A stretch of DNA of 21,937 bases from a virus, in IMG/VR virus record IMGVR_UViG_3300001450_000375, positions 1 to 21,937 of that record; one strand, given 5' to 3'. This document shows positions 3,342-11,444 of this stretch, one piece after another. The notes beneath the pieces are model-generated. The model saw nothing but the letters and a program-made list of their open reading frames with translations. It was not told the DNA's origin and searched no databases. How positions within the stretch are numbered: position 1 is the first letter of the stretch; each line of letters begins with the position of its first letter. The translations under genes were made by a program, and so were the position numbers.

Positions 3342-3536
3342 TTAATTTTCAATAACCTCGTTATTTCTGGGGGTTATTTGTATTTGTGATATTATTTCTT
3401 CTATATCATTTATAATATATTGCTCATCTAAACTTAAATCATTAAACAATAATCTAATTTTTTCTACATCTTCTGATGTTAGGTTTTCACCCTGTTCTTG
3501 CAATGTTTCGGTAATTATATCAAGGGATTTTGTCAT
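3342..3536 (-). CDS. Small acidic helical protein, unknown
   Basis: 64 residues, strongly acidic and Ile/Leu-rich (LTSEDVEKIRLLFNDLSLDE). It looks all-helical with no membrane segment. The start at 3536 lies within the end of the minor head protein gene (17-base overlap), with AGGA seven bases upstream. It sits between the minor head protein and the scaffold, so it is co-expressed with head proteins and may be a small assembly factor. I do not recognise the family. Confidence 0.6.
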   Translation of the reverse strand: MTKSLDIITETLQEQGENLTSEDVEKIRLLFNDLSLDEQYIINDIEEIISQIQITPRNNEVIEN

Positions 3537-5556
3537 CTTTTATTTCCTGTAAAATTTTTAAAAATTCTGGTGCAACTAATTCCTCTTTTCCCCTGTAATA
3601 AAGTGAAAAGTTTTCAACAAACCATTCTCTAGTATTAGTTGTTCCGTATTGTGAAGGTGAATGATCTTTTATCCCCCTTACTTTGTTTAATCTATCCTCT
3701 AGTGGTCGGTTTACTTGTGTCCATGCAGGTTCAGTTCCAGATACTGGACTTGTTCTAATATCCTTAATTTTATATTGTTGATGTATATGATGACCCATTT
3801 CATGATAAAATGTGGCTCTAAATTGTTCTACATTATCATTTTCAAAACTTTTAGCTGACCAAGGGCGAGCAACAATGGTATCACCCCTTTTCCAATTTGA
3901 TACAGGTGCAATTAATTTATTATTTATTTTTTTATTTATATCATTAATTTCAGATTTTATTGATCTACTTTGTCTTTCTAAAATTGATAATTTGTAATTT
4001 AATTCATTATAATTTTGTCTTGTAAACTTACCAGTTTCACTAAAAGTTCCACTACCTAATGTTCTCCAATCCCAAGCATCACTAACCCCCAATTCTTCGT
4101 ATATTTCGTATTTTTTAGCACTTAATTTAACATATTCATCTTCAAGTTTTAACTTTTGATCTTCAAACTTGTTTAAAGTCTTAGCATCTAATGGCTTGTC
4201 ACCTATTCTTTTTGCTCCATTTTGTGCAAATCTAAGTTGAATACCCATAGTACCATCACCCATATTTGCTAAAAATGATCTTTCGTTTTTAGAGCCTTTT
4301 ATACCTCTAATCATGGGGACATTGAATTTTTTACATAATTCTTCTGCTTCTGGCATCATGGCATTAATCATTGATAGTTCTCTATCACCTAATTTTGTAC
4401 CAGATACTTTTCCAAAATTATTTACATTTGAACCTCTATAATGACCAATATTTTTATTTAAATACCTATCGTCTTTACTAGCATCACTAAAAACCTTGTT
4501 TAATCGCTTTGTGGCTTCGCTTGACGATAATATCTGAATAGTTTGTTCTGTTACTCCCTCACGACTAATAGGGGTAAATATATCTGTTTGATCTACAACT
4601 GGTGGTGGTGGTGCTTCCTCAACTACTGGTTCATCTGGCACTTCATCAACTGTTTCTTCACCCCATGAAGGGTCTGTGGGTATCCAAGTGTGTCTACATC
4701 TATAACCACCCCTAACAATAAAAGGGTCACCAGTAGACTTTCCTGCCCATGACCTATTGTTCCACATTTTCCTAATTTGTTCTTCTGTGAGTGTCTTATT
4801 AAGCATATCAACACAAAATGGTCTACTATCCCTAACTAATGTACCAGTATATGTGAAATGATTTAACCCAGATGCTTTAGCTTTCGCTACTGTAAACTGC
4901 CCATGAAACTGCATTACCGAATCATGTGCTATCTGACTTGCATAACGTCTAAGGTTGTTTCCTGCCCTATCACTCGCATACTGTGTATGAAGTTTTCTAA
5001 CTGCTTCTTCTACTTGTGCTTTCTTTGCACTATCAAATTTATTCTCGTTAACAAAATCAACTAATTCATTAATCTCGCTAGTATTTGATGATTTATAAAC
5101 TCCATTGATATGTGATTTGATATTACTAACCATATCGTTAAATGGTCTACCTGCTATTGTACTTTGGTAAACCTCATCATTAATTACCTTTAAAAATCGT
5201 TCTGCTATATCTTCAAAACCACTAAATGACTGGGTTTTCAAGGCATTGATGGTGGCTAAATCTACATCTGTTAGGTTCTTAAACTTTGCAGGAATAGGCA
5301 TTTTCCCAAAAGTATCTAAAGTTTCTTTGGCAATTTTATTATAGTCATCATTAATTAGTAGATCAGCTTCATTTAAAAAGGTTCTTTCAATTATGGCTCT
5401 TAGTCTGGGTTGTAATTGAATAGCTAATCTTTGAGAAACCAAGTTACCTTTTGTGGCTCTAGTAATTTCATTAATAACGTCATTCTCTAGCCTGTACAAT
5501 ACATCAATTATACGTTGTTCATGTTGATCGGCTAATTTTTCTAAAATTCTTGACAT
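3520..5556 (-). CDS. Mu gpF-like minor head protein with zinc metallopeptidase-like C-terminus
   Basis: 678 residues, two-part. The N-terminal half is a phage Mu F-like head morphogenesis domain: helices to about residue 190, then IAHDSVMQFHGQFTVAKA (209-226), YTGTLVRDSRPFCVDMLN (236-253) and GGYRCRHTWIP (283-293), the standard end of this fold. A Pro/Val/Glu-rich linker (about 300-325) follows. The C-terminal part has FYHEMGHHIH with an HExxH zinc site (H585, E586, H589), and about 55 residues later NTREWFVENFSLYY, where E644 or E648 could be the third ligand, as in gluzincins. Proteins of this first type sit at the portal vertex. The peptidase could mature the head or act after injection; activity is inferred from the motif only. 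It follows the portal and precedes the scaffold. Confidence 0.85.
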   Translation of the reverse strand: MSRILEKLADQHEQRIIDVLYRLENDVINEITRATKGNLVSQRLAIQLQPRLRAIIERTFLNEADLLINDDYNKIAKETLDTFGKMPIPAKFKNLTDVDLATINALKTQSFSGFEDIAERFLKVINDEVYQSTIAGRPFNDMVSNIKSHINGVYKSSNTSEINELVDFVNENKFDSAKKAQVEEAVRKLHTQYASDRAGNNLRRYASQIAHDSVMQFHGQFTVAKAKASGLNHFTYTGTLVRDSRPFCVDMLNKTLTEEQIRKMWNNRSWAGKSTGDPFIVRGGYRCRHTWIPTDPSWGEETVDEVPDEPVVEEAPPPPVVDQTDIFTPISREGVTEQTIQILSSSEATKRLNKVFSDASKDDRYLNKNIGHYRGSNVNNFGKVSGTKLGDRELSMINAMMPEAEELCKKFNVPMIRGIKGSKNERSFLANMGDGTMGIQLRFAQNGAKRIGDKPLDAKTLNKFEDQKLKLEDEYVKLSAKKYEIYEELGVSDAWDWRTLGSGTFSETGKFTRQNYNELNYKLSILERQSRSIKSEINDINKKINNKLIAPVSNWKRGDTIVARPWSAKSFENDNVEQFRATFYHEMGHHIHQQYKIKDIRTSPVSGTEPAWTQVNRPLEDRLNKVRGIKDHSPSQYGTTNTREWFVENFSLYYRGKEELVAPEFLKILQEIKDDKIP

Positions 5557-10280: not shown

Positions 10281-10496
10281 TCACATTTCATATTGGCTTA
10301 TTAATTTATTTAAATACCATTGTGCTTTTTTTAAATCTTCAACACCATTTTTATGTTTAAATCTCCAAATGTACTTTGTTATATTCCCTTGTAGATATGC
10401 AGGAAAATCATCACCTAACATAGCTTCTATAGCATCAATACATTCAATTTCTGATGTGTTGTAATGTGTTGGATTATTAATCATGTCATTCATCAT
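10281..10496 (-). CDS. DUF3310 family protein (phage nucleotide kinase-like annotation)
   Basis: 71 residues from ATG 10496, chosen because it forms TAATG with the DUF1376 stop; a GTG at 10505 is in frame but less likely. The sequence follows the family closely: NPTHYNTSEIECIDAIEAM, then QGNITKYIWRFKHKNGVEDL and KKAQWYLNKLI. DUF3310 proteins are small, common in phages, and often labelled nucleotide kinase-like, although their activity is not established. It is cotranslated with the replication protein, which fits a part in DNA metabolism. Confidence 0.85.
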   Translation of the reverse strand: MMNDMINNPTHYNTSEIECIDAIEAMLGDDFPAYLQGNITKYIWRFKHKNGVEDLKKAQWYLNKLISQYEM

Positions 10497-11380
10497 TATA
10501 CCCAACTACCCATTTCCAAGTAATTAATTGCATCTTCTTTTGTAAAATGACCCTCTTTAATGGCTCTTTCAACGTCATATGGGTGTTGTTTTGCATATTT
10601 GGCAATAAAGCTACTACCTTTTTTATTTCTCACAGCTTCTTTAAAAACTTTTAACCTATTATCATAAGGTTCAACAGCACTACTAACTGATTTAGGTTGT
10701 TCATCTAAATACTTTTTAGCTGATAACCAGAAAGCAGGTTGTTTAGCAAATTGTTTATCTTCAATAGAACTATAATATTTATTATACATATCTGCTAGTT
10801 CTTCTGCTTTTTCTATCCATTCTGGTTCAATATTAACAAAGTTTTTTTCTGCTATTCCCTTACTAACTTTATTAGAAACCTTATTCCAAAACTTATGAAA
10901 AAAGGGATTATAACTTATCTTACTTGTTTTGGTAGGATAGGTGGTAGGGGTAGGGGTAGTGGTAGGGGGGTTTGTGCTAGGGGGTGTGCTAGGTTCTACT
11001 CTAGGTTCTATACTAGGTTTTTTTGGTCTACCACCTAACTTGCCATTCTGTTTTGATGCTTCCATTCTCTTAGTTATGAACAAATATTCTTGTAGTTGTC
11101 TTTCATTTTGGTAATGATTATTTACTAAAACAAAGAATTCTTTAATAACTATTTCACAACTTTCTTTTTCACTTTCTGAAATGCAATTTGCTATTCTTTG
11201 ATATTTCATGACTTCATTAGGTATTCCAGAACATCTTTTATTCCAGTTCCAACAAAGTAGTCTAATATATATGCCTATTTCCTCATTAGATAAGGCTTGA
11301 GTACCTGCAATAAAATCTTCTGTGAAAAGATACCATGCTTTTAATTTCTCTTTAGGCTTTGAATTTTCGTCTATAAACAT
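10496..11380 (-). CDS. DUF1376 (YdaU-like) replication initiation protein
   Basis: 294 residues from ATG 11380, which has the early box TTGGAGATCA nine bases upstream; the frame reaches TTG 11392. Residues about 13-95 form a DUF1376 domain: LKAWYLFTEDFIAGTQALSN followed by EEIGIYIRLLCWNW and IPNEVMKYQRIA. Next is GKLGGRPKK, a Pro/Thr/Ser linker (about 118-152) encoded by 12-nt repeats, and a helical C-terminal domain with PAFWLSAKKYLDEQP. Proteins of this class act like initiator or helicase-loader proteins in phage replication. Its neighbours (exonuclease, HTH protein, SSB) support that. The repeats inside the gene may be the origin. Confidence 0.82.
   Translation of the reverse strand: MFIDENSKPKEKLKAWYLFTEDFIAGTQALSNEEIGIYIRLLCWNWNKRCSGIPNEVMKYQRIANCISESEKESCEIVIKEFFVLVNNHYQNERQLQEYLFITKRMEASKQNGKLGGRPKKPSIEPRVEPSTPPSTNPPTTTPTPTTYPTKTSKISYNPFFHKFWNKVSNKVSKGIAEKNFVNIEPEWIEKAEELADMYNKYYSSIEDKQFAKQPAFWLSAKKYLDEQPKSVSSAVEPYDNRLKVFKEAVRNKKGSSFIAKYAKQHPYDVERAIKEGHFTKEDAINYLEMGSWV
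10931..11018 (-). repeat. 12-nt tandem iteron-like repeats inside the DUF1376 gene
   Basis: On the minus strand about seven degenerate 12-nt units run in tandem: CCTAGTATAGAA, CCTAGAGTAGAA, CCTAGCACACCC, CCTAGCACAAAC, then CCCCTACCACTA-like units. The plus-strand CTAGG core recurs at 10977, 10989, 11001 and 11013, exactly 12 bases apart. They encode a four-residue periodic linker (PSIE, PRVE, PSTP, PSTN, ...). The region is strikingly G-rich on the plus strand compared with its surroundings. The arrangement resembles iterons of the lambda origin, which also lie within the initiator gene. Confidence 0.7.
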
Positions 11381-11405: not shown

Positions 11406-11434
11406 ATTATAATCCCTCTAGGCTAAAACCTAAA
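11406..11434 (-). promoter_or_regulatory. Possible promoter upstream of the DUF1376 gene
   Basis: On the minus strand a perfect TATAAT (11406-11411) is preceded at 17 bases by TTTAGG (11429-11434), a poor -35 box. It overlaps the hairpin at 11411-11440. In so AT-rich a genome a chance -10 is quite possible. Confidence 0.3.
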
Positions 11435-11444
11435 GGGATTTTTT
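11411..11444 (+). terminator. Intrinsic terminator reading on the plus strand
   Basis: AATCCCTCTAGG, loop CTAAAA, CCTAAAGGGATT: a 12-bp stem with one G-U pair, followed directly by TTTTTT in the plus direction. It sits in the gap between the exonuclease and DUF1376 genes, both on the minus strand. In the minus direction there is no T-run. So it would stop antisense transcripts rather than the operon itself. Confidence 0.6.

Follow-up and report, generated by a model that had tools for sequence, protein, structure and literature searches.

The locus examined here raises the question of why the DNA in the middle of a phage gene encoding a DUF1376 protein should be repetitive, and whether that repetition serves the protein or the DNA itself, possibly as an origin of replication. 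The window, that is, the whole stretch of DNA analyzed, is a 21.9-kb IMG/VR phage record (21,937 nucleotides) carrying genes for terminase, SPP1-type portal, capsid, SSB, lysozyme and nuclease, nearly all of them on the minus strand. A preliminary description of this DNA had proposed that tandem 12-nt repeats within the gene form a candidate origin.

The DUF1376 Gene and Its Product

The gene spans 10496..11380 on the minus strand (ATG at 11380-11378) and encodes 294 aa of a putative replication initiator or primosomal protein. Pfam analysis confirmed that the repeats lie inside a DUF1376 gene, the product matching DUF1376 (PF07120) at 44 bits against a curated cut-off of 30.1 (E 3e-11); it also matched PHROG 9327, annotated as “primosomal protein,” at E 1.7e-25. 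The N-terminal domain (residues 1-112; 11045..11380, minus strand) is predicted to be winged-helix-like, with an AlphaFold pLDDT of about 80-95 over residues 21-110, and is presumably the DNA-binding part. It is followed by a linker of about residues 119-157 (10910..11026, minus strand), the DNA of which carries the repeat element and was followed through the codon choice of homologues; AlphaFold assigned these residues a pLDDT <50 and thus predicts them to be disordered, in agreement with the flexible linker described previously. The C-terminal helical region (10499..10909, minus strand), with helices spanning residues 159-287 at mixed confidence, would be the part that recruits a helicase or primosome.

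Comparison of the N-domain with solved structures resulted in weak winged-helix matches (Z <6), among them ORC2 and Cdc6 (replication winged helices), plasmid initiators and DnaD. The matches to 4pql (Z 5.2), 4pt7 (Z 4.8) and DnaD 2vn2 (Z 4.2) were found among many unrelated winged helices, and these predicted-structure scores are too low and do not establish kinship with the matched initiators. A Foldseek search with the predicted structure gave no match with E <1, a sequence search of solved structures gave nothing meaningful, and Pfam searches up to E 0.1 detected no lambda O (Phage_rep_O), RepA_N or other Rep family in the protein. In Vibrio phage Seahorse and in an Obolenskvirus, a DnaB-type helicase gene directly follows the related gene.

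Other features of these genomes were recorded as well. A hairpin, ATCCCTTTAGG-TTTTAG-CCTAGAGGGAT, lies at 11412-11439 (minus strand), 32-59 nt ahead of the DUF1376 start codon, and many relatives also have it upstream of the gene, partly with pair-preserving changes; its T run is on the opposite strand, as in a terminator of antisense transcription. Positions 3520-5556 (minus strand) encode a phage head-type protein with a C-terminal HExxH (HEMGHHIH) metallopeptidase-like segment, where the sole Pfam match is weak and under its cut-off. In contig G004 (L157:1-16000 plus L158:1-15956), an MT-A70 family adenine methyltransferase gene (L158:4579-4920, minus strand) is situated just downstream of the DUF1376 gene. 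The first 50 bases of this contig recur about 100 bases before its end, and G004 may therefore represent an entire genome, about 31.9 kb in size.

Architecture of the Repeat Element

On the coding strand, the linker DNA of the window reads CCTAGTATAGAA CCTAGAGTAGAA CCTAGCACACCC CCTAGCACAAAC CCCCCTACC ACTACC CCTACC CCTACC ACCTATCCTACC. Module 1 (10970..11017, minus strand) consists of four 12-nt units with the core CCTAG, starting at 11017, 11005, 10993 and 10981. These cores occupy 10977-10981, 10989-10993, 11001-11005 and 11013-11017 on the minus strand at a spacing of exactly 12 nt, which is the regularity noted previously, seen here as CCTAG. Module 2 (10931..10970, minus strand) begins with the C-rich block CCCCCCTACC (10961-10970) and continues in 6-nt nCTACC/CCTACC units, with its first CCTA starting 15 nt after the start of the last CCTAG. 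TRF analysis likewise delimited a 12-nt array at 10989-11019 and a 6/18-nt array at 10931-10968. Since this other half of the tract is phased at 6 nt, the “about seven 12-nt units” of the preliminary description proved to be an overcount; four such units were found, and 10931-10970 is made up of 6-nt CCTACC/CCCCTA units. Just downstream, an A+T-richer stretch (10871..10930, minus strand) may be an unwinding region, its contrast being modest (family averages of 71-76% A+T, vs. 67% for the gene and 45-48% for the element).

Among the tandem arrays detected by TRF in the window and in G004, none other stands out as a competing origin. A second CCCCCCTACC in G004 was considered and rejected, as the long gene that contains it is unrelated and has no repeats. 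Scanning the window for Rfam families and tRNAs returned nothing.

Repetition and Conservation Beyond the Needs of the Protein

In order to distinguish repetition of the DNA from that imposed by the amino acid sequence, the linker peptide was re-coded synonymously with the codon usage of the phage. Of 5000 such trials for the window, 5 reached an equally high 12-nt autocorrelation, 7 contained four CCTAG and none had as many 12-nt-spaced 5-mers, bearing out the earlier view that a Pro/Thr linker alone does not demand such strict repetition. Repeated 6-mer pairs numbered 35 in the window linker vs. 8.3 after recoding (0 of 1000 trials as high), while the iteron segment of lambda O, used as a positive control, gave 14 vs. 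0.9 and a lambda O control segment gave 0.

Homologues were collected from IMG/VR (80 genes), with more obtained via an alignment query, and words were counted in the linkers of 33 dereplicated genes and compared with 500 simulations. CCTAG was observed 73 times (13.5 expected, simulation maximum 22), CCCCTA 88 times (3.3 expected, maximum 11) and CCTACC 80 times (3.8 expected, maximum 11), whereas outside the linkers, in 8 times as much sequence, the same words occurred only 3, 3 and 0 times, respectively. Codon choice followed the same pattern, with ACC used for 151 of 212 Thr codons in the linkers vs. 23 of 300 in the remainder of the same genes, and with a constancy of codon choice that was threefold higher in linker columns (23.3 vs. 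7.5). The non-repeated words AAAAAACCTAGC and AACCCCCCTACC were also fixed among genes only 60-70% identical in protein. The repeats are real and are conserved as DNA.

The number of 12-nt cores varies from 1 to 5 among homologues, so a strict 12-nt array is not universal. The preliminary description had stated that homologues keeping the linker and losing the repeat units would refute it, and this is found only in part: in 17 of the 55 dereplicated genes one CCTA alone precedes the C-rich block, but the block and the spacing to it are retained. In all ten genomes tested (the window, eight longer relatives and HTVC112P), the linker was the densest or joint-densest CCTA site. In a few relatives (L052, L056, L057, L116 and L058), the linkers contain CCCTAACCCTAACCCC runs, which as DNA are telomere-repeat-like.

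One DNA Sequence in Two Reading Frames

The word CCTAGnnnAAACCCCCCTACC is a single DNA sequence read in two codon frames, as PSQNPPT or as NLDKTPL. In one group of genes CCTAGCCAAAACCCCCCTACC is translated as PSQNPPT, and in the other CCTAGATAAAACCCCCCTACC is translated as (N)LDKTPLP; the frame differs between the groups because one upstream unit is 11 nt instead of 12 nt long, with a compensating length change downstream. The distance from the last CCTAG to the CCTA of the C-rich block is 15 nt in most genes of both frame groups. Between the 32 frame-0 and the 23 frame-2 genes, average identity is 70% for the DNA of the 21-mers and 12% for the peptides. A tree built without the linker requires at least 13 frame changes, some of which may reflect exchange of the whole linker by recombination. 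Genes with cleaner 12-nt units, CCTARACCATAA, were found at L137 and L143-L145 and are read in frame 2.

When 2.9 million viral contigs were scanned for CCTAGnnnAAACCCCCCTACC, among the matches listed 80 of 80 lay on the coding strand of DUF1376-family genes, 62 of them in frame 0 and 18 in frame 2. The exact 21-nt pattern was absent from the GTDB genome collection (host chromosomes). With frame switching included, the homologues thus bore out the proposal that the repeats are kept as DNA beyond what the protein needs, and we regard the reading of one DNA in two frames, as deduced from these alignments, as the strongest evidence for conservation at the DNA level. That the same DNA is kept even where the protein reads another frame suggests that the tract is probably the site at which the phage starts copying its genome.

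Extension to the HTVC112P Clade

The DUF1376 protein of Pelagibacter phage HTVC112P is 26-30% identical, and the linker in its clade is a 6-nt CCTA array (CCTATACCTATACCTAAACCTATACCTAAT). CCTA was observed 163 times in 32 linkers of this clade (59 expected, simulation maximum 73), a count that overstates independence because the set was not dereplicated. Pro was encoded by CCT in 162 of 165 linker codons vs. 46 of 114 elsewhere, and the HTVC112P linker is the densest CCTA place in its genome. CCCC was observed 2 times vs. 2.0 expected; because C runs are not enriched in this clade, the feature held in common is the CCTA word with its 6/12-nt phase rather than C-richness.

Alternative Explanations for the Conserved Tract

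It is nearly certain that the tract is a cis-acting element. Nucleotide-level, strand-specific conservation is expected from any cis role, and the element might accordingly be an operator through which the protein regulates its own gene, a packaging or recombination site, or a Rho-loading mRNA signal, the last being in line with the C-rich, G-poor coding strand of the window's clade. We consider such a role unlikely. In the HTVC112P clade the CCTA words are not accompanied by C runs, contrary to a C-rich RNA signal, and any RNA signal in a mid-gene tract would be masked by ribosomes. Packaging sites are usually near terminase genes, and the terminase genes of the window are 1.5 kb or more away. 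A structural signal formed by a template-strand G-quadruplex appears even less plausible, to the point of being hardly credible: the tract does contain four G runs of at least 4 on the plus strand of the window (runs of 4-6), but a four-run G3+ pattern was present in just 16 of 55 homologues, and the HTVC112P clade shows no enrichment of C runs.

A different possibility is that the tract has no function, and that a Pro/Thr-rich linker which slips in length and is homogenized by recombination between phages only looks conserved. The linker lengths are indeed variable, and distances in the N- and C-domains are discordant for some pairs (r = 0.48), so that exchange across the linker does happen. 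This explanation is nonetheless quite improbable, since it accounts neither for non-repeated AAAAAACCTAGC and AACCCCCCTACC remaining fixed at 60-70% protein identity, nor for DNA words and spacing that stay while the frame switches, nor for the same word in the HTVC112P clade, which has no close DNA kinship. Some pairs, L125 and L117 among them, are closely related in one domain but distant in the other, which suggests exchange of domains across the linker. Also very unlikely is the idea that clustered rare codons slow translation at the domain boundary; ACC, CCC, AGC, AAC and CTA are minority codons in the phage, yet other rare codons are avoided (ACG in 0 of 212 Thr and CCG in 2 of 264 Pro codons, with Arg encoded only by AGA and Leu nearly only by CTA), and rarity predicts neither the 12-nt words nor the same word in a second frame. 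The G-quadruplex, rare-codon and slippage explanations were thus found wanting on homologue counts, codon choice, frame switching and the HTVC112P clade.

A Candidate Origin Within a Putative Initiator Gene

We consider it likely that the element is the replication origin of the phage, bound by the product of its own gene; this reading rests on the layout that it has in common with lambda O and pSK41 Rep. In lambdoid phages, iterons and an A+T-rich tract lie in the middle of gene O (PMC7466680). In pSK41-type plasmids, Rep boxes are placed centrally in rep, encoding the linker between a winged-helix N-domain, which binds the Rep boxes, and a DnaD-like C-domain (PMC5703833). By analogy with lambda O at its origin and pSK41 Rep at the Rep boxes, the linker DNA would act as the origin through CCTA direct repeats that are 12/11-nt phased and then 6-nt phased and C-rich; the winged-helix-like N-domain of the DUF1376 protein would bind these repeats, the adjacent duplex would open, and the C-terminal domain would recruit a helicase or primosome. 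The candidate origin put forward in the preliminary description gains from the conservation of the DNA but not from the GC skew it had suggested as a check, which tracks gene orientation and maps no origin; GC3 skew across same-strand genes likewise showed no consistent switch.

The likeness to lambda O lies in mid-gene direct repeats whose translation separates an N-terminal, DNA-binding domain (presumed in the DUF1376 protein) from a C-terminal one (PMC7466680), as well as in the response of the lambda iterons to the recoding test; in lambda the repeats adjoin an A+T-rich tract (PMC7466680), and here the neighboring stretch is modestly A+T-richer. In contrast, the lambda iterons are 18 bp, four in number (six in Stx phages) and in a fixed frame, whereas here 12/11-nt CCTA units with 1-5 cores are joined to a 6-nt C-rich array and read in two frames, and the DUF1376 protein has no Pfam kinship to lambda O. 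With pSK41 RepA_N, the element has in common repeats that are central in the initiator gene and code for an interdomain linker (PMC5703833), and the weak N-domain matches include 4pql, 4pt7, 4pta and 5kbj (listed as DNA-binding protein, initiator and Rep-DNA complex); it differs in the lack of a RepA_N Pfam match, in low structural scores and in the repeat sequence.

Among DUF1376 phage proteins (PHROG 9327 and others; HTVC112P gp14, Obolenskvirus and Vibrio phage Seahorse), the N-domain is homologous, and the HTVC112P clade also has a CCTA-word linker; the linkers of Obolenskvirus, Seahorse and Microcystis were inspected at the protein level only. In the papers searched, no origin or repeat element is described for the HTVC112P gp14, Obolenskvirus or Seahorse proteins, and the open literature searched, outside of which most subscription journals lie, describes no origin in a DUF1376 gene. 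Initiator genes with an internal origin are already known; the novelty of this candidate lies in its repeat words, its two-module syntax and its frame switching.

Implications for DUF1376 Phages

On balance, we favor the broader view that DUF1376 phages have a family of origins in which the CCTA DNA, and not the protein, is conserved through frame switches, and which extends to HTVC112P-type pelagiphages. Because the CCTA words persist through these switches, as 12-nt iterons and, at an almost constant distance, a 6-nt C-rich array, the linker itself may be a by-product of the origin. It would then be an unusually plain example of how a DNA signal inside a gene shapes part of the encoded protein. 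Most uncultivated marine phages have no assigned origin, and GC skew is no guide to one here; a word diagnostic of the origin would locate it in a phage family seen in hundreds of marine contigs, and the origin reading would suggest a function for a family known as a “domain of unknown function.”
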